From a virus: a stretch of DNA of 22,582 nucleotides. The position numbers and the translations under genes are program-made. Shown in pieces: positions 8,443 through 22,582 of the stretch; position 1 is the first letter of the stretch, and each line of letters starts with the position of its first letter. Under the pieces are notes generated by a model, which saw only the letters and a list, made by a program, of their open reading frames with translations, did not search any database and was not told where the DNA came from. The stretch covers positions 1 to 22,582 of the IMG/VR virus record IMGVR_UViG_3300006990_000184, one strand, 5' to 3'.

Positions 8443-9999
8443 ATGACAGACACATTAAAAAAATTTAAAAGTATATTTGAAGGCTTAGACATAGCTCGTG
8501 GTGAAACCCGTAAGACAGGTGAGGTATCTGCAAAAGGTAAAAGTATTACTAGGTCTAAAACAATTACAGAACCACCTACGGATAAAATGTGGGAAGATCA
8601 TTTAAAAGGTACTGACCCTGCATTAGGTATCATTCCAATAAGAAGAGACAATACTTGTATATGGGGATGCATTGACTGGGATGTATATCCTTTAGATCAC
8701 AAAGAAATAGTACAAGATTTAAAAAAGAAAAAGATACCACTTACAGTATTCAGATCAAAATCTGGTGGTGCACATTTATTTTTATTTACAAAAGAACCTG
8801 TTCCTGCAGTTATGATGAGAGATAAATTAAAAACATATGCTTCAGCTATTGGTCATGCAAGAGCAGAGATATTTCCAAAACAAGAAAAGATAAATATTGA
8901 TCGTGGCGATGTAGGTAGTTTTTTAAACCTACCTTACCACAATTTAGAAAATACAGTTAGATATGCTTTCAATAATGATGGTGAACCAATATTAAATGTT
9001 GAAAAGTTTTTTGAACACTATGAAAAAAATGTTTTAAGTGTAGACCAATTTAATAATCTAAAATTAAAAGAAACAGAAGAAGATGACTTTCTTGAAATGC
9101 CACCATGTTTAGTTACGCTTTTATCTGAAGGTGTTGGTGAAGGAATGAGGAATGAAACTATGTATAATGTAGGAGTATATCTGAAGAAAAGATTTTCTGA
9201 GGACGATCTTTGGAAAAAGAAAATGAATCACTACAACATAAAATATTTTAAACCACCTATCAATGCATCAGAACTTGTTAAGACTCAAGAATCATTAGAT
9301 AACAAAGATTATTTTTATAAATGTAAAGATGAACCTTTATCATCTTTTTGTAATTCTAAACTGTGTGTAACAAAAAAATATGGTGTAGGTGATGATGATG
9401 CACCGGTACAAACCATATCTGCAATTAGAAAATATAATTCAGACCCACCATTATTTTTCTGTGATATCGATGGACAAACAGTGATGGTTGAAACTGCAGT
9501 TCTTCATGAGCCAGATAAATTTTCAATGGCGTGCTTAGAACAAATCAATAGACCACAAATGCCTATGTCTAAAATTATATGGCGTAAGATGTTAATAAAA
9601 CTCTTACAAGAAAAACAAGAAACAGACCTTAAGGCTACTGAAGATTTAAAAATAGACAACCAACTAAAAGAATACATGGAAGACTTTGTAAATAAAGTTA
9701 GAGGTAAAGATATCAATGATATTCAAAGAGGTGTTGCATATAGTGATGATAACTATAGTTATTTTAAAATGAAAGATTTTTGGAAACATTTAGTAAAAAA
9801 CAAATGGCCAGATAAAAGGTATCCAAAACATGTAGTAGTACAAAAACTACAGACTCAATTAAAGATTGAAGAGGATTATCCAAAAATAAACGGTAAAACA
9901 GTGCGTTGCTTTAAGATGTTAAAGATTGTATCTGTTGAACCAGAGAAAGCAAAATATGAAAGTCAGGAACCATCGTGGAAAAGAAAAATAGAACAGTAA
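8443..9999 (+). CDS. Archaeo-eukaryotic primase (AEP) superfamily DNA primase
   Basis: The protein (518 aa from the ATG at 8443; 526 aa if translation starts at 8419) carries AEP signatures like those of TOTE-type and phage PrimPol-like primases. A metal-binding DxD lies in IDWDVY (D78, D80). SGGAHL (107-112) provides the catalytic His. ARAEIFPKQ and GDVGSFLNLPYHN follow. A later Cys motif, YKCKDEPLSSFCNSKLC, resembles the zinc-binding C-terminal region of this family. It synthesises primers for PolA. I prefer 8443 because AGGA sits 6 bases upstream and the ATG at 8419 has its ribosome site 13 bases away across a hairpin stem. The gene overlaps the SF1 helicase by 25 bases, implying coupled translation. 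Confidence 0.88.
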   Translation: MTDTLKKFKSIFEGLDIARGETRKTGEVSAKGKSITRSKTITEPPTDKMWEDHLKGTDPALGIIPIRRDNTCIWGCIDWDVYPLDHKEIVQDLKKKKIPLTVFRSKSGGAHLFLFTKEPVPAVMMRDKLKTYASAIGHARAEIFPKQEKINIDRGDVGSFLNLPYHNLENTVRYAFNNDGEPILNVEKFFEHYEKNVLSVDQFNNLKLKETEEDDFLEMPPCLVTLLSEGVGEGMRNETMYNVGVYLKKRFSEDDLWKKKMNHYNIKYFKPPINASELVKTQESLDNKDYFYKCKDEPLSSFCNSKLCVTKKYGVGDDDAPVQTISAIRKYNSDPPLFFCDIDGQTVMVETAVLHEPDKFSMACLEQINRPQMPMSKIIWRKMLIKLLQEKQETDLKATEDLKIDNQLKEYMEDFVNKVRGKDINDIQRGVAYSDDNYSYFKMKDFWKHLVKNKWPDKRYPKHVVVQKLQTQLKIEEDYPKINGKTVRCFKMLKIVSVEPEKAKYESQEPSWKRKIEQ

Positions 10000-15909: not shown

Positions 15910-16491
15910 TTGTCTCTCATACCTGAAAATTTTATTTTTGTAAAAAAATACAACAATATCAATAGTTTAAAAGAAAAAGTCTTAAAATATACAAAAGAAG
16001 ACTGGCACAAATACGACTATAGGCAAAAAAATTATATGGTCCACATGAATACAAAGACCATACCTTTGATATGGAATGAAATGGATAAATACAATCAAAG
16101 AAATTTAGAAAAAGATAATAGAAAATTTTGGCCTGAAGCAGATAATTATAAAACAGAGTTAGATTCTATTTCACAAATATTTACAGAAAAATACGGAGAA
16201 GGTTTTATTACAAGTGCATTGTTAATTAATCTACCTTCTAGGTCTATCATAGCTCCACACGTAGATAATCAAGATGCTTATTTTGATCTTGTTAAAAGAA
16301 CTCATTTAGCTATTGTATCTGATGATGAAGTAAGATTTATTGTAGGTGGTGAGGATAAAAATATAAAAGAGGGTGAGATATTTGAGATTAATAATAATCA
16401 AAAATTACATGAAGTTAAAAATAATTCTGAAATAGATAGGATTCATTTATTAACTGATTGGTTAACTATAAAAGGAGAAAGAAATGAGTGA
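15910..16491 (+). CDS. Aspartyl/asparaginyl beta-hydroxylase-like 2OG-Fe(II) oxygenase (193 aa)
   Basis: I take TTG at 15910, two bases after the polybasic gene stop and behind AAGGAAAAGGA, as the start. An ATG at 15820 would give a 30-residue Lys/Arg-rich leader produced only by frame overlap with the previous gene. The C-terminal half matches the cupin core of the Asp/Asn hydroxylase family: APHVDNQ with His117 and Asp119, RTHLAI (131-136), VGGEDKNIKEGEIFEINN, then His167 in KLHEVKNNS and Arg177/His179 in DRIHLLTDW. Such enzymes hydroxylate protein side chains or cap small molecules. The substrate is unknown. It overlaps the next gene by 8 bases. Confidence 0.75.
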   Translation: MSLIPENFIFVKKYNNINSLKEKVLKYTKEDWHKYDYRQKNYMVHMNTKTIPLIWNEMDKYNQRNLEKDNRKFWPEADNYKTELDSISQIFTEKYGEGFITSALLINLPSRSIIAPHVDNQDAYFDLVKRTHLAIVSDDEVRFIVGGEDKNIKEGEIFEINNNQKLHEVKNNSEIDRIHLLTDWLTIKGERNE

Positions 16492-16705
16492 GAAGAAACT
16501 AACATTAAAAGCAACAGGCGTAACTCAAAAACAATGGGGCGTACTTGTTCTTGAACTTAATATACTTAAGAAAGCATGGAAGAGTTACGGGGTAGATATA
16601 GATTTGTCTGGTCACGGAATTAAATCTATTGTTGAAAAAGGTACAAGAATTTACGAATTTAAAAACGCTGATGAAAAAACTAAAAGAAATAAATTAAGCG
16701 GGTAA
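16484..16705 (+). CDS. Short conserved phage protein of unknown function (73 aa)
   Basis: The ATG at 16484 is preceded by AAAGGAG at good distance and overlaps the oxygenase end. Residues include LKATGVTQKQWGVLVLELNILKKAWKSYG and IKSIVEKGTRIYEF, a helix-strand mix. The WGVLVLELNILKKAW helix is recurrent in related marine phages. No motif suggests an activity. It ends convergently with the following minus-strand gene, overlapping 12 bases. Confidence 0.8.
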   Translation: MSEKKLTLKATGVTQKQWGVLVLELNILKKAWKSYGVDIDLSGHGIKSIVEKGTRIYEFKNADEKTKRNKLSG

Positions 16706-16969
16706 TTTAGGTTTTCTTGGTGGGACAGTAATGTCGTGAATTTTTATTGCTCTACATTCAAATTTTACTACCAATTTTTGTTGTTCTATAACGTCTCTTT
16801 CAAAGTCTTCCATTTTTTTTAATTCCATAAAAGTTTTTTGAGCAACCCCATATCCATTTAATGCACAATCATAGTGAGTTTCAAAACTAGTTTTTATTGA
16901 AAAATGGGTAGAAGGACATTGTCCCGTAACCATAGAACATAGATGTAATACAATTATAAATTTAGTCAT
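16694..16969 (-). CDS. Secreted-like small protein with conserved Cys (91 aa)
   Basis: Starts at ATG 16967-16969 behind CAGGAG. Residues 1-18 are a hydrophobic signal-like stretch, TKFIIVLHLCSMVTGQCP, followed by Cys at about 11, 19, 35 and 73, and a C-terminal tail rich in Pro and Lys (ITVPPRKPKLPA). Cys-containing, signal-bearing 90-residue proteins of this pattern occur in marine phages. A periplasmic or membrane-associated role is inferred; no enzymatic motif is seen. It is the only minus-strand gene in this stretch, diverges from the RHH-like gene, and its start codon touches the -35 box of the rightward promoter. Confidence 0.75.
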   Translation of the reverse strand: MTKFIIVLHLCSMVTGQCPSTHFSIKTSFETHYDCALNGYGVAQKTFMELKKMEDFERDVIEQQKLVVKFECRAIKIHDITVPPRKPKLPA

Positions 16970-17206: not shown

Positions 17207-17459
17207 AGAAATATGTCCCGTGTGTAGCGGAAATGGGTATGTATTATCCGGCGTAACCGTTTATCAATGTAGTTACTGTGAATCTCAAGGCGAGATACCT
17301 AAGCGAGAAGCGAGCGTCGAGGAGCTACAAAAAGTAGTTTCAGAACTTCAAATACATAGAGGAGTGTTGCAAGCAAAAATAAAACAACAAGCTTCTAAAA
17401 TTGCAGAGCTAGAAAACTATTTAAATGTTCAAGCGTTCAAAAAGAATTCTTTACAATGA
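17190..17459 (+). CDS. DnaJ-type zinc knuckle plus leucine-zipper protein (89 aa)
   Basis: ATG at 17190. The N-terminus carries CPVCSGNGYV (Cys-x-x-Cys-x-Gly-x-Gly), then CSYCESQGEI, together a DnaJ-like zinc centre. Residues 45-78 are a coiled coil with Leu/Ile at heptad spacing (VEELQKVVSELQIHRGVLQ). It is probably a dimeric zinc-binding nucleic-acid or protein adaptor. It sits second in the RHH-led operon and overlaps the endonuclease gene by 4 bases. Confidence 0.8.
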   Translation: MANLDREICPVCSGNGYVLSGVTVYQCSYCESQGEIPKREASVEELQKVVSELQIHRGVLQAKIKQQASKIAELENYLNVQAFKKNSLQ

Positions 17460-17884
17460 TATCGGAAATTGATTGCGCATACATTGCAGGTTTATTTGAT
17501 GGTGAAGGCTCAATACACATAAGACGTGGTATTGAAAAAAAGAAAAGACACAAAGGTAAACCTGGATACAGACTTTCTAATTCTATGCGTATCAGTATGG
17601 AAATTACCATGACAGATAAATCTGTTTTAGTTTGGGTCCATGAAGTATTGGGTGTAGGTACACTTATACCTAAGAAAGTAAAAGGGAACAGAGTTGATGG
17701 TACACCTTATCTTAAACAATGGAGATGGCGTTGTACGTTTCGTGATGCTTATCGTGTGTGTTGTATGCTTTGGCCTTTTGCTCATACAAAACTACCTAAG
17801 ATACAAGAAGTAATAGATCATTACTCAGACAGTAATATAGTTGATTTAACAGAGTACAGAGTAGCAAAGGAGTTAGAGGTTTGA
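17456..17884 (+). CDS. LAGLIDADG homing-endonuclease-type protein (142 aa)
   Basis: The start ATG at 17456 overlaps the previous TGA. The N-terminal AYIAGLFDGEGSIHI (8-22) matches the LAGLIDADG motif with the catalytic acidic residue Asp15 in GLFDGEGS. The remainder forms beta strands and helices of the usual fold (SMRISMEITMTDKSVL, WRWRCTFRDAYRVCCMLWPF). With a single motif it should act as a homodimer on a near-palindromic site. It is free-standing, not inside an intron or intein, and is translationally coupled to both neighbours by 4-base overlaps, which is unusual for an invasive endonuclease and could indicate domestication. Confidence 0.9.
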   Translation: MISEIDCAYIAGLFDGEGSIHIRRGIEKKKRHKGKPGYRLSNSMRISMEITMTDKSVLVWVHEVLGVGTLIPKKVKGNRVDGTPYLKQWRWRCTFRDAYRVCCMLWPFAHTKLPKIQEVIDHYSDSNIVDLTEYRVAKELEV

Positions 17885-19669: not shown

Positions 19670-19943
19670 AAAATCAAAATACAGACATGTAGTGCTTAAG
19701 AAGAAGAAATATTACTTCTACAAAATAACATGGCTTGATATTTTAGGTGATAGCGGGCACGCTACGGCTCATGAGTTTAATGGTATGATGCCTTCAATAA
19801 TGGTCACTAATGCTTACCTATATGATAAGGATTCTAAGTGCATAAGAACGTTTGCCAGTTACGATGAAGCTGATGGTCTATTCTCTGATCGAAATGTATT
19901 TCCTAAAGGTTGTATTGTTAAAATGGAAAAGATATTATTGTAA
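19662..19943 (+). CDS. Conserved marine-phage protein of unknown function (93 aa)
   Basis: ATG at 19662 behind GGAAAGGA. The sequence is basic at the start (KKSKYRHVVLKKKKYYFYK), then ITWLDILGDSGHATAHEFNGMMPSIMVTNAYLY, and a DEADGLFSDRNVFPKGCIVKMEKIL end. I recall this pattern as a recurrent small gene near the replication/terminase boundary of marine phages. It looks like a single small beta-barrel-like domain. It ends convergently with the terminase gene, overlapping 9 bases. Confidence 0.8.
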   Translation: MNKKSKYRHVVLKKKKYYFYKITWLDILGDSGHATAHEFNGMMPSIMVTNAYLYDKDSKCIRTFASYDEADGLFSDRNVFPKGCIVKMEKILL

Positions 19944-20522
19944 TGAAGGTTCTGGCTCTTCTGGAATGGGTTCTTCAAGTAACTCTTGGTCTGTTTCTTC
20001 TATGGTTTCTATTTCATCTTCCGGCTCTGATGATAGCTCTATTAGCGGTTGTTCTTCTGTAGATTCACCCTCAATTATTTTTGAATGGTCCTCTACCATC
20101 TTCTCTAGTTTAGACATTAACTGATCTCTATCGAGATCATCTATCTTACCAGTCTTAATCATTTTTCTGTCAATGTAATATCCGGCAACCTTTCCTCTGG
20201 CTACTTCCATGTTACCCGCTGCAGAATATGCTCCCTTCTTCAACGCTTGGTCACGTATTTTTGCAAGCTGCTCAAGGTGCCTGTCCATAGTAACTTCGTA
20301 CTTCTTTCTGGCTTCCTCGCGCAGCTCACCAATGTACTTAACTACAAGAGGGTACAATTTAGGATTAGTTAATTTTGAAGAGGCGACTCTTGCTGCAAGG
20401 TCAGACCCTGGGCCGTAGCCAGCTTCTTTTGCACACTCCCAAGCATCTCTGCTTCCGTCGTTATACACAATAAGCTCAGCGAATTTTTTCTGCTTCTCTG
20501 TCAATCTTTTAGGTAATCCCAT
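19935..20522 (-). CDS. terS: Terminase small subunit
   Basis: The 195-residue protein begins MGLPKRLTEKQKKFAELIV, with the Terminase_2-type N-terminal helix-turn-helix (DGSRDAWECAKEAGYG) and AARVASSKLTNPKLYPLVVKYI. A coiled-coil centre (ARKKYEVTMDRHLEQLAKIRDQ) follows, then a strongly acidic tail after residue 150 with many Glu and Pro. The small subunit recognises packaging sites and regulates the large terminase. It is encoded on the minus strand with GC-richer codons than the plus-strand neighbours, and the large subunit is not in the window. The ATG at 20520-20522 faces the divergent genes at 20561. Confidence 0.93.
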   Translation of the reverse strand: MGLPKRLTEKQKKFAELIVYNDGSRDAWECAKEAGYGPGSDLAARVASSKLTNPKLYPLVVKYIGELREEARKKYEVTMDRHLEQLAKIRDQALKKGAYSAAGNMEVARGKVAGYYIDRKMIKTGKIDDLDRDQLMSKLEKMVEDHSKIIEGESTEEQPLIELSSEPEDEIETIEETDQELLEEPIPEEPEPSLQ

Positions 20523-20980: not shown

Positions 20981-21373
20981 ATGAAACCTGAGACTAAATT
21001 TTGGCATGAAATTAAGAAAAATACTAAGCAAATTTCCTGGACTAGACTTGAAAACCTTAGCGCTTTTGGTACTCCCGATCTATTGGGCTATAATACTAAT
21101 AGCCACTTTTTCACTGTAGAGCTGAAGGTAACAAGAGCTAACAAGATTAAGTTCTCACCCCACCAAATTGCCTTCCATATTAAGCACCCTGACAATACTT
21201 TCATCTTAGTTTCTCGCCTCTTGTCTCGAGGCTCAAAACTTTTTGAGAAAGAAGAAGTTTACTTGTACAGAGGAAAGAGAATAAAAGAGCTTGCTGCTTG
21301 TGGCTTGAAGCTTGATGCTTGCCGCTCAGGTCTTGATGCTTGCGTCAATCACTTGACCCGGCTTGGAGCTTGA
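20981..21373 (+). CDS. VRR-NUC-type nuclease with a repeat-derived C-terminus (130 aa)
   Basis: The core has FGTPDLLGY with Asp33, FTVELKV with Glu47 and Lys49, and FSPHQIAFH with Gln62: the PD-(D/E)XK signature of small VRR-NUC-like nucleases, often DNA-junction or flap endonucleases in phages. The core spans about residues 1-105. The remaining residues (from ELAACGLKL) derive from the GCTTGNN repeat array and end by chance in GCTTGA. So the gene either acquired a repeat tail or the array formed over its end. GGGTG upstream of the ATG is the likely ribosome site. Confidence 0.8.
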   Translation: MKPETKFWHEIKKNTKQISWTRLENLSAFGTPDLLGYNTNSHFFTVELKVTRANKIKFSPHQIAFHIKHPDNTFILVSRLLSRGSKLFEKEEVYLYRGKRIKELAACGLKLDACRSGLDACVNHLTRLGA

Positions 21374-21440
21374 CGCTTGTTGCTTGAGGCTTGAAGCTTT
21401 CGAACCAACCTTGCTTGAGGCTTGCTGCTTGGAGCTTTGG
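21289..21440 (+). repeat. Degenerate 7-base tandem repeat array (GCTTGNN), copy 1
   Basis: Units of seven bases starting GCTTG follow one another: five in a row at 21289-21323 (last two bases CT, TG, AA, AT, CC), degenerate units to 21358, then five at 21361-21395 (GA, AC, TT, AG, AA), a variant GCTTTCG, and four more from 21413 (AG, CT, GA, then GCTTTGG). The first five bases are kept while the last two vary freely. The array covers the end of the VRR-NUC gene and the 3' part of the minus-strand 76-aa ORF. Confidence 0.85.
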
Positions 21441-21556
21441 CCCGGATCAGGGCGCACGCTATCAACGACTTCGCGAGTGTCGGGTTTGCTAATGGCCTGA
21501 TCCGATTTATCCCTGGGGATTCTGTAAAATTTTGGATGTTTAAATACAAATGTCAT
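21326..21556 (-). CDS. Small ORF with a Ser/Lys/Gln/Ala repeat tail (76 aa)
   Basis: The ATG at 21554-21556 begins two bases after the stop of the GP88-type gene, as in an operon. The first 35 residues (MTFVFKHPKFYRIPRD, KPDTREVVDS) look like an ordinary short domain; the remainder is a Ser/Lys/Gln/Ala-rich heptad tail (SSKQQASSK, SSLKQQASSSK) specified by the repeat array. A second open frame across the same bases (21549 to 21349) is rejected. Convergent with and overlapping the VRR-NUC gene. Coding status is moderate; function unknown. Confidence 0.5.
   Translation of the reverse strand: MTFVFKHPKFYRIPRDKSDQAISKPDTREVVDSVRPDPGQSSKQQASSKVGSKASSLKQQASSSKPGQVIDASIKT
21443..21504. repeat. 9-bp inverted repeat with 44-base spacer
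   Basis: CGGATCAGG (21443-21451) and its exact complement CCTGATCCG (21496-21504) flank a 44-base GC-rich spacer that itself contains the palindrome TCGCGA. It could form a hairpin with internal structure. It begins three bases after the end of the first repeat array and lies within the minus-strand 76-aa ORF. No T-run follows on either strand. Confidence 0.5.
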
Positions 21557-21558
21557 TT

Positions 21559-22158
21559 TTAGTGTTTACCATAACTAACATTTTTTATATCTTTATTCCA
21601 GCAAGCTCGACAATCTAAACACTGGCCGCCCTGATTAGGCGCTGGGCAGCTGGGGTTGCCATCGGTAACAACCGTTGAGCTGTGAGTCCAGGCGTTGCCA
21701 GCGGTCCCGTCTACACGTGCAGCTGATAATCTAATAATTAAATTTGTCGGAACCTCTTCAGGGGCTGGCAGGTATTGCCGCTCTTGAGTTGGTAACCAGT
21801 GTTTGGTGTCAGGCGTGAGCTTGCACACTTCAATAATTTTTGCCATATGCTCATGACTTTGTACATCTCCCGCGTCATGCCATCTAAACCATTTTTGACG
21901 CTTGATAACAGCCGCCATTGCTTCAACCCATTGTGGGTGATTGATAGCGTCCAGCCTTCTATATTGCGCTTCTCTAATTGCAGGGTATCTAACATAATTA
22001 TTTTTCATAGCATAACAGCCGTAACATGGTGAAGTCTTAACCTTCCTGAGTTTCGCGCCAGTCTGGCAGGCCCAGGCTGGCAAGCTGTAACTAAGACCAG
22101 GCATTTTGCTGGTCTTAGTAAATGAGTCTGTTATTTTAAGCGCTTCTTTTACTTTCAC
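21559..22158 (-). CDS. GP88-family phage protein (199 aa)
   Basis: I take GTG at 22156-22158 as start (MKVKEALKIT), because the ribosome site AAAGGAGG lies 7 bases upstream; a TTG at 22174-22176 would put the ribosome site inside the gene. The sequence has GLSYSLPAWACQTGAKL, a SPCYGCYAMK double-Cys motif (Cys45, Cys48), YRRLDAINHPQWVEAM, RWHDAGDVQSHEHM, TKHWLPTQE and a terminal Cys cluster (CPAPNQGGQCLDCRACW). This matches the phage gene-product-88 family, whose function is not established; several Cys could bind a metal or Fe-S cluster. GC-rich relative to the window, suggesting a transferred module. Confidence 0.9.
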   Translation of the reverse strand: MKVKEALKITDSFTKTSKMPGLSYSLPAWACQTGAKLRKVKTSPCYGCYAMKNNYVRYPAIREAQYRRLDAINHPQWVEAMAAVIKRQKWFRWHDAGDVQSHEHMAKIIEVCKLTPDTKHWLPTQERQYLPAPEEVPTNLIIRLSAARVDGTAGNAWTHSSTVVTDGNPSCPAPNQGGQCLDCRACWNKDIKNVSYGKH

Positions 22159-22354
22159 GTTCAACCCTCCTTTCAAAATCTTCTTCAGCTAGCGTTATAA
22201 TTCTGTCAATCAGGTCCCTATATTCACCAGTTGGCATCAGTCCAGCCAGTGAGCTAACAGTACAGTCTTTCCACCTGTCAACCCATTGTTGCTTTGTGTT
22301 TTTAATTTCTTTACCCATCATTGAGTAAGTGTCTATTGTTTTTTCTTCTTTCAT
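22136..22354 (-). CDS. Small helical protein upstream of the GP88 gene (72 aa)
   Basis: ATG at 22352-22354 behind AAAGGAGA. Helical, charged sequence with KNTKQQWVDRWKDCTVSSLAGLMPTGEYRDLIDRIITLAEEDFERR and an Arg/Ser-rich end. It overlaps the GP88-type gene by 23 bases, so the pair is translationally coupled. I do not recognise the family; a role linked with the GP88 protein is plausible from conserved position only. Confidence 0.75.
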   Translation of the reverse strand: MKEEKTIDTYSMMGKEIKNTKQQWVDRWKDCTVSSLAGLMPTGEYRDLIDRIITLAEEDFERRVERESKRSA

Positions 22355-22371
22355 AATTTCTCCTTTATTAT

Positions 22372-22400
22372 CCTATACTATAAATCTTTTACCATGTCAA
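22372..22400 (-). promoter_or_regulatory. Sigma-70-type promoter for the GP88 module
   Basis: On the minus strand, TTGACA (complement of 22395-22400), a 17-base spacer and TATAGG (complement of 22372-22377) lie 18 bases before the ATG at 22354, with AAAGGAGA between. It is the clearest consensus promoter on this strand. The -35 box is six bases from the second GCTTGNN array. Confidence 0.65.
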
Positions 22401-22582
22401 CAGCTGCTTGAGGCTTGCCGCTTGTTGCTTGCCGCTTGTAGCTCGGGTTTTTAATTTTTTCGATCCCCAGCATCCGCAGCTGTGACCTGCTCAGGGTCCT
22501 TCCCTTGTTTATGTTTAGAAAATTTTCTGGCCGCATCACGTGCCCATCCCAGGACCGGTATAAAAAACTGTATTTACTTTCT
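22378..22582 (-). CDS. Possible partial ORF entering from the right edge
   Basis: Open to the window edge in the frame with last codon TAG at 22378-22380 (68 codons). It includes FLYRSWDGHVMRPENFLNINKG, LSRSQLRMLGI and a repeat-derived tail (SYKRQATSGKPQAA) reminiscent of the minus-strand 76-aa ORF. A second frame of the same strand, ending TAA at 22453-22455, gives FIPVLGWARDAARKFSKHK and DPEQVTAADAGDRKN with more ordinary codons but an in-frame stop at 22574-22576 and no ATG. I cannot decide which, if either, is real. Confidence 0.4.
   Translation of the reverse strand, partial: ESKYSFLYRSWDGHVMRPENFLNINKGRTLSRSQLRMLGIEKIKNPSYKRQATSGKPQAAVDMVKDL
22406..22447 (+). repeat. Degenerate 7-base tandem repeat array (GCTTGNN), copy 2
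   Basis: Six successive units, GCTTG followed by AG, CC, TT, CC, TA, then GCTCGGG, with the same strand and unit as the array at 21289-21440. It sits upstream of the GP88 module promoter, so the two arrays bracket that module as direct repeats. The stretch 22448-22582 beyond it holds only the uncertain ORFs described above. Confidence 0.85.

Follow-up and report, generated by a model that had tools for sequence, protein, structure and literature searches.

GCTTGNN heptanucleotide arrays in relatives of SAR11 phages: probable docking strips for a small phage DNA-binding protein

Introduction

Why would a phage keep long runs of a 7-nucleotide unit, five bases of it fixed (GCTTG) and two of it free (NN), at one place and on one strand of its genome? 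The question is raised by a window of 22,582 bases, the whole stretch of a virus record that we analyzed, which encodes a DNA polymerase A, a SNF2-type helicase and a terminase small subunit (TerS) and is, judging from its sequence, a fragment of an HTVC023P/HTVC027P-type pelagiphage. Phages of the HTVC023P type are described as widespread and abundant in the ocean (PMC9599517). Our literature searches, which covered open-licence papers, did not find the GCTTGNN arrays of these phages described. The arrays are best read, we argue here, as docking strips for a small phage DNA-binding protein that would control neighbouring promoters, in preference to random repeats or a code for a protein tail.

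Table 1. Features of the window that bear on the arrays
Feature	Position	Strand	Remarks
RHH-like protein, 56 aa	17036..17206	+	ribbon-helix-helix (RHH)-like; HTVC027P gp21 homolog; candidate array reader
Terminase small subunit (TerS)	19935..20522	-	Pfam Terminase_2, E 6e-6
VRR/Hjc-like PD-(D/E)xK nuclease gene	20981..21373	+	weak Pfam Hjc match, E 0.034; PHROG 2165, E 9e-12
Array 1	21289..21438	+	14 exact GCTTG cores at 7-nt spacing, plus decayed units
gp32-like small ORF	21326..21556	-	head conserved (MTFVFKHPKFYRIPR), array 1 encoding the tail
GP88-family gene (PF17338)	21559..22176	-	Pfam E 9e-29; HTVC027P gp33 homolog, 90.6% aa identity
72-aa ORF (ORF72)	22136..22354	-	first gene behind the array-2 promoter
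-10 element TATAGG	22372..22377	-	17-nt spacer to the -35 box
-35 box TTGACA	22395..22400	-	promoter reading ORF72 and GP88; directly after array 2
Array 2	22406..22445	+	five exact units and one decayed unit (GCTCG)

Results

Two arrays of one repeat class

All 10 exact matches to GCTTGNNGCTTGNNGCTTG in the window lie on the plus strand, within 21289-21431 and 22406-22438, and when up to two mismatches are allowed the window holds 14 matches, a number that 0 of 100 dinucleotide shuffles attained. The exact cores of array 1 fall into three phase blocks (21289-21342, 21361-21393 and 21413-21431) with decayed units between them and contain contiguous runs of 5, 5 and 3 units; those of array 2 start at 22406, 22413, 22420, 22427 and 22434. 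The two same-strand arrays that the initial annotation had proposed are thus present where it placed them and exceed what shuffling would produce, and its counts of 18 and 6 units hold when decayed units are included, the exact cores numbering 14 and 5. It had also set the pattern apart from CRISPR, iteron and microsatellite repeats, and this was borne out: 1690 of about 1900 in-phase array-1 units from phages are exact, and their free pair uses all 16 dinucleotides, making this a genuine repeat class in which the core is constant and the pair free. CRISPR arrays, which need repeats of 20 or more nucleotides with unique spacers of similar length, were rejected for a 5-nt core with 2-nt gaps.

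The arrays recur at one locus in phages related to those of SAR11

Hundreds of phage contigs related to known SAR11 phages share GCTTGNN arrays in this position. Searching viral contigs for runs of four exact units gave at least 120 stretches; nearly all of those listed are low in GC, and in most of them a long array is followed about 700-1000 bp on by a shorter one on the same strand. The layout is recurrent (TerS, a VRR/Hjc-like nuclease, the long array, the GP88 gene and the short array, always on one strand), and among the 120 listed array loci TerS was found at 98, a VRR/Hjc-like ORF at 101 and GP88 at 87. Contigs picked without regard to arrays gave the same picture, with arrays in 78 of the 80 selected through GP88 and in 74 of the 80 selected through the VRR-like protein; across 257 deduplicated GP88 loci we counted 241 arrays of the array-1 type. 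Of 13 chosen records, most of them 30-63 kb long, 11 had arrays, and only at this locus and in a single orientation. The search of marine phage contigs that the initial annotation had called for finds the arrays widespread.

In HTVC027P itself there are three arrays (16506-16631, 17396-17439 and 17719-17737), with next to none in the rest of its genome; at the threshold used for that scan HTVC023P and HTVC033P had none. Just upstream of terS in HTVC023P (L249, 11680-11771), where GCTTG arrays are absent, there are five copies of CTAGGAAA, and these, together with a divergent RHH-like gp13 (8538-8759), may constitute another operator, read by a protein of its own. Three further contigs (L502, also labelled G402; L501; and L397) have the VRR-like gene adjacent to a terL-like ORF, with arrays and GP88 missing, and the first of them nevertheless encodes the RHH-like protein.

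Bacterial genomes tell a different story. Four-unit arrays were found in just 3 of 385 alphaproteobacterial genomes, at least one of these homogeneous, and a host-wide element was rejected on that count. The GCTTGNN arrays found in bacteria (Pseudomonas, Halomonas, Alcanivorax and others) are mostly ordinary microsatellites, with the same NN in each unit for the most part. The Pseudomonas dryadis genome holds 150 four-unit matches on both strands at many sites, some of them mixed in NN and some forming inverted pairs.

Selection maintains the nucleotides of the core

Among close relatives the two free bases change 9-10 times as fast as the core. In 54 disjoint pairs for array 1 the change was 1.6% in the core, 15.1% in NN and 6.1% in the flanks, and in 55 disjoint pairs for the arrays upstream of GP88 it was 2.7, 25.2 and 10.4%, with a slight bias toward low core rates, as a unit was labelled only where one or both members of the pair had it in exact form. 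That the arrays might be functionless products of slippage, as in many bacterial genomes where homogeneous GCTTGNN runs do exist, is contradicted by this pattern: the phage arrays keep the core and randomize the pair (all 16 NN occur, and NN changes by 15-25% against 1.6-2.7% in the core), which is the opposite of slippage homogenization, and their genomic position, strand and promoter linkage are fixed. We consider slippage extremely improbable.

Selection on an encoded protein deserves closer scrutiny. The initial annotation held that each array encodes a 7-residue periodic tail. This period follows from three 7-nt units making seven codons, and such a tail does occur, in the ORF at 21326-21556 on the minus strand, and the nuclease gene likewise extends at its 3' end into array 1; no stop codon is possible in any frame of the CAAGC strand, and the gp32-like ORFs run into the array in all 79 of the 79 found. 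These facts would be accounted for if the array were there to supply the gp32-like protein or the nuclease with a periodic C-terminal tail rich in K, Q, A and S. In the gp32-like frame, however, the core changes by 2.0, 3.0 and 2.5% and NN by 17.5, 14.3 and 13.9% at codon positions 1, 2 and 3, so that neither carries a codon-position signal. Because core rates are similar at the three positions, and because arrays upstream of promoters retain the identical core, we place selection on the nucleotides and not on the encoded tail, a tail code being disfavoured by the codon-position test and, in our judgment, very unlikely.

Of the functions that the initial annotation had entertained, diversification of a protein tail is disfavoured on the same two grounds. 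RNA structure fares no better, as folding of the arrays was unremarkable on both strands; an Rfam search of the window returned no match, and evidence for a role in recombination was not found. Between the arrays and terL (L247:17740-18120; L461:2540-2650; L427:4770-4890) the non-coding sequence contains large, imperfect hairpins in which a CTGATCCCAGGTCC / GGACCAGGGATCAG stem recurs; they may represent a structured RNA or a terminator.

Most short arrays lie close to a minus-strand promoter

On the minus strand the window reads CAAGC-AGCTG-TTGACA-N17-TATAGGATAAT, followed by the 72-aa ORF, for which Pfam and PHROG searches gave no match, and then by GP88; array 2, read in this direction, ends 5 nt ahead of the -35 box. 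This arrangement is common. A TTGAC[AT] box lies within 45 nt after the array on the CAAGC strand in 250 of 315 arrays upstream of GP88, against 6 of 241 copies of array 1 and a random-position background of 4%, and after clustering the contrast stands at 110 of 147 short arrays versus 2 of 97 for array 1, which sits where the VRR-like gene (+) and the GP88 operon (-) converge at their 3' ends. In 55 clusters, half of the promoter-linked short arrays, the last CAAGC abuts the -35 box at distance 0, and the distances from array to -35 box follow no single helical phase. The CAAGC|TTGACA junction contains a palindrome, CAAGCTTG, and a reversed unit therefore covers part of the -35 box. On the CAAGC strand, short arrays are repeatedly preceded at close range by a hairpin-like motif, CCGG(G)TGAGACCTACCGG (in L275, L278 and L334, for example).

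In HTVC027P, promoters with arrays precede gp33 and gp34; gp02 and gp36 are preceded by comparable promoters that lack an array. Published RNA-seq of this phage assigns gp33 and gp34, and no other gene, to a temporal class, 'extra cluster 2', with high expression 6-9 h post infection (PMC12753301). The match between array promoters and this timing is correlational, the two genes also being adjacent and on the same strand.

These data bear on the idea that the arrays are elements at the 3' ends of CAAGC-strand transcription units, serving in Rho loading or in the binding of a protein to mRNA 3' ends, with promoter adjacency arising from compact gene spacing. Such an element would explain array 1 as well, and it would sit comfortably with the array-less minus-strand promoter upstream of the most distal HTVC027P array. 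It accords poorly with the exact abutment of the -35 box by half of the non-redundant promoter-linked arrays, with the private shared timing of gp33 and gp34, with the strict 7-nt spacing, which is unexpected for Rho sites, and with the RNA structure that was not found; we regard it as quite unlikely.

A ribbon-helix-helix-like protein is a candidate reader

A presence/absence comparison combined with visual inspection of sequences led us to an RHH-like candidate, gp21 of HTVC027P. The protein is encoded in 21 of 21 contigs with 7-nt-type arrays and at least 7 kb upstream, and in 38 of 45 when an upstream stretch of 4.5 kb or more is required. Since the gene is also encoded by two array-less genomes, the contig G402 and, in divergent form, HTVC023P, presence alone is no proof of a link. 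Upstream of the RHH-like gene there is a promoter-like TTGAC/TATAAT sequence without an array, and a small minus-strand ORF (16694-16969, PHROG 19893) diverges from the gene in the window, as gp20 does from gp21 in HTVC027P.

The fold is a prediction. A first structure model was of low confidence and without useful matches; a second, from AlphaFold2 (pLDDT 74.6), shows an extended segment followed by two helices, and its structural matches include TTHA0139 (Z 6.3) and, in a group at Z 4.7-5.5, PutA RHH (Z 5.5 and 5.2) along with Arc (Z 5.4), all of them middling values; the basic helix-loop-helix entries follow from Z 3.1 down. Foldseek with the model gave no E value below 0.37. At the sequence level the psg01 homolog matched Pfam RHH_1 (E 0.0023) below the curated cut-off; all Pfam RHH models missed the 56-aa protein of the window, the 25 families that Pfam listed for 47 small proteins of HTVC027P included no RHH, a profile of the candidate found nothing significant in the PDB, and an hhalign comparison with CopG and Arc sequences was not significant. 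Correlation, in the form of co-occurrence and a predicted fold, thus suggests the RHH-like protein as reader of the arrays.

Some phages carry an 8-nt period

Some phages have arrays of GCTTGNNN, with a period of 8 nt. Where both sides of GP88 were informative, the period was 7/7 in 184 cases, 8/8 in 2 and discordant in 0. The RHH proteins of two 8-nt phages share 93% identity, versus 27-77% for other shared genes, and among contigs fetched purely by similarity to the 8-nt-type RHH protein, 37 of the 42 that could be classified have the 8-nt period, often interspersed with steps of 7 nt. In these RHH-fetched contigs a -35 box follows 32 of 154 runs of at least two units, against a background of 2%. 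A GGGCCCACCC motif accompanies the arrays of 8-nt-type and psg01-type phages (L251:15367-15490 and 16220-16290; L295; L323), and in L323 a run of T comes after it, as at an intrinsic terminator.

When the period of an array was predicted from its nearest neighbour, in a sample biased by its selection through RHH, the RHH protein was right in 65 of 70 cases, the VRR-like protein in 63, TerS in 62 and GP88 in 53, which favours the RHH protein, with the VRR-like protein and TerS nearly as good. The showing of TerS would suit a packaging or pac-type site at which a TerS ring binds the long array and starts DNA packaging, as would its presence at 98/120 listed array loci and the location of array 1, which adjoins terS and in HTVC027P lies between terS and terL. 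Packaging does not predict the tie of the short arrays to minus-strand -35 boxes, and we hold it to be unlikely. The RHH protein and the arrays may instead form a co-evolving protein-DNA ruler, in which the 5-base core was kept while one RHH subfamily moved from a 7-nt to an 8-nt period, dimer-dimer packing and not base recognition having evolved; we offer this tentatively, as a possibility with the odds somewhat against it.

Discussion

The arrays are conserved, keep to one strand and one position, mostly adjoin promoters when short, and are under selection at the nucleotide level. We infer binding, repression and a role for array 1 as follows. The arrays would be contiguous-heptad operators bound by a phage RHH protein that sets timing at the short arrays and nucleates on array 1, a reading to which we assign a probability of roughly 0.6. 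Counting against it are the largest array, which no promoter follows, the array-to-box distances, which keep to no single helical phase, and the two array-less genomes that encode the RHH-like protein. Dimers of the protein would line up along the array, one on each GCTTG core, and at short arrays would cover or adjoin the -35 box of sigma70-type promoters on the minus strand. The protein would be most likely a repressor that accumulates during infection and gives GP88 (gp33) and the gp34-type genes their special timing. Array 1, which has the largest number of units and is not followed by a promoter, would offer a nucleation site of high capacity where the GP88 operon ends, and would there block convergent transcription or loop to array 2.

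Most genes of HTVC023P-type phages are without known function, and a conserved operator array with a candidate regulator would make their transcription programme accessible to experiment. For the packing of RHH dimers along DNA, the phages with 7-nt and 8-nt periods would furnish a natural comparative system.

Comparison with known systems

The closest likeness is to plasmid pSM19035, in which 7-10 consecutive heptads overlap promoters and each dimer of ParB (omega), an RHH repressor, binds one heptad (PMC9499535). Both systems have contiguous 7-bp repeats with a 5-bp core and two degenerate positions, at least four in a row (five in array 2), and the phage short arrays also lie at promoters (110 of 147 within 45 nt of a -35 box), array 1 excepted. 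The omega/parS reader is a small RHH protein with one dimer per repeat; the phage candidate is RHH-like by predicted fold and co-occurrence. The two also differ: the omega/parS consensus is WATCACW (core ATCAC) and the phage core is GCTTG, pSM19035 mixes heptad orientations whereas the phage units all point one way, and the phage arrays reside in a SAR11 phage and not a plasmid, the longest of them without a promoter. No family of ParA, the ATPase partner in omega/parS, was among those listed for the 47 small HTVC027P proteins.

Other systems share fewer traits. MetJ is an RHH protein that acts on tandem 8-bp met boxes beside promoters and resembles the phage system in the type of the candidate reader, in promoter adjacency and in the 8-nt period of some of these phages, but met boxes are palindromes and the phage units are not. 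Streptomyces SARP regulators use heptameric direct repeats near promoters, as the phage arrays do, with spacers between heptamers that are contiguous in the phages. The bacterial GCTTGNN microsatellites have the consensus unit in common with the phage arrays and, unlike them, mostly identical NN across units. As the consensus differs and the orientation is uniform, we claim neither membership of omega/parS nor kinship with it; by analogy, the best reading is that the phage arrays would work like omega (ParB) arrays.
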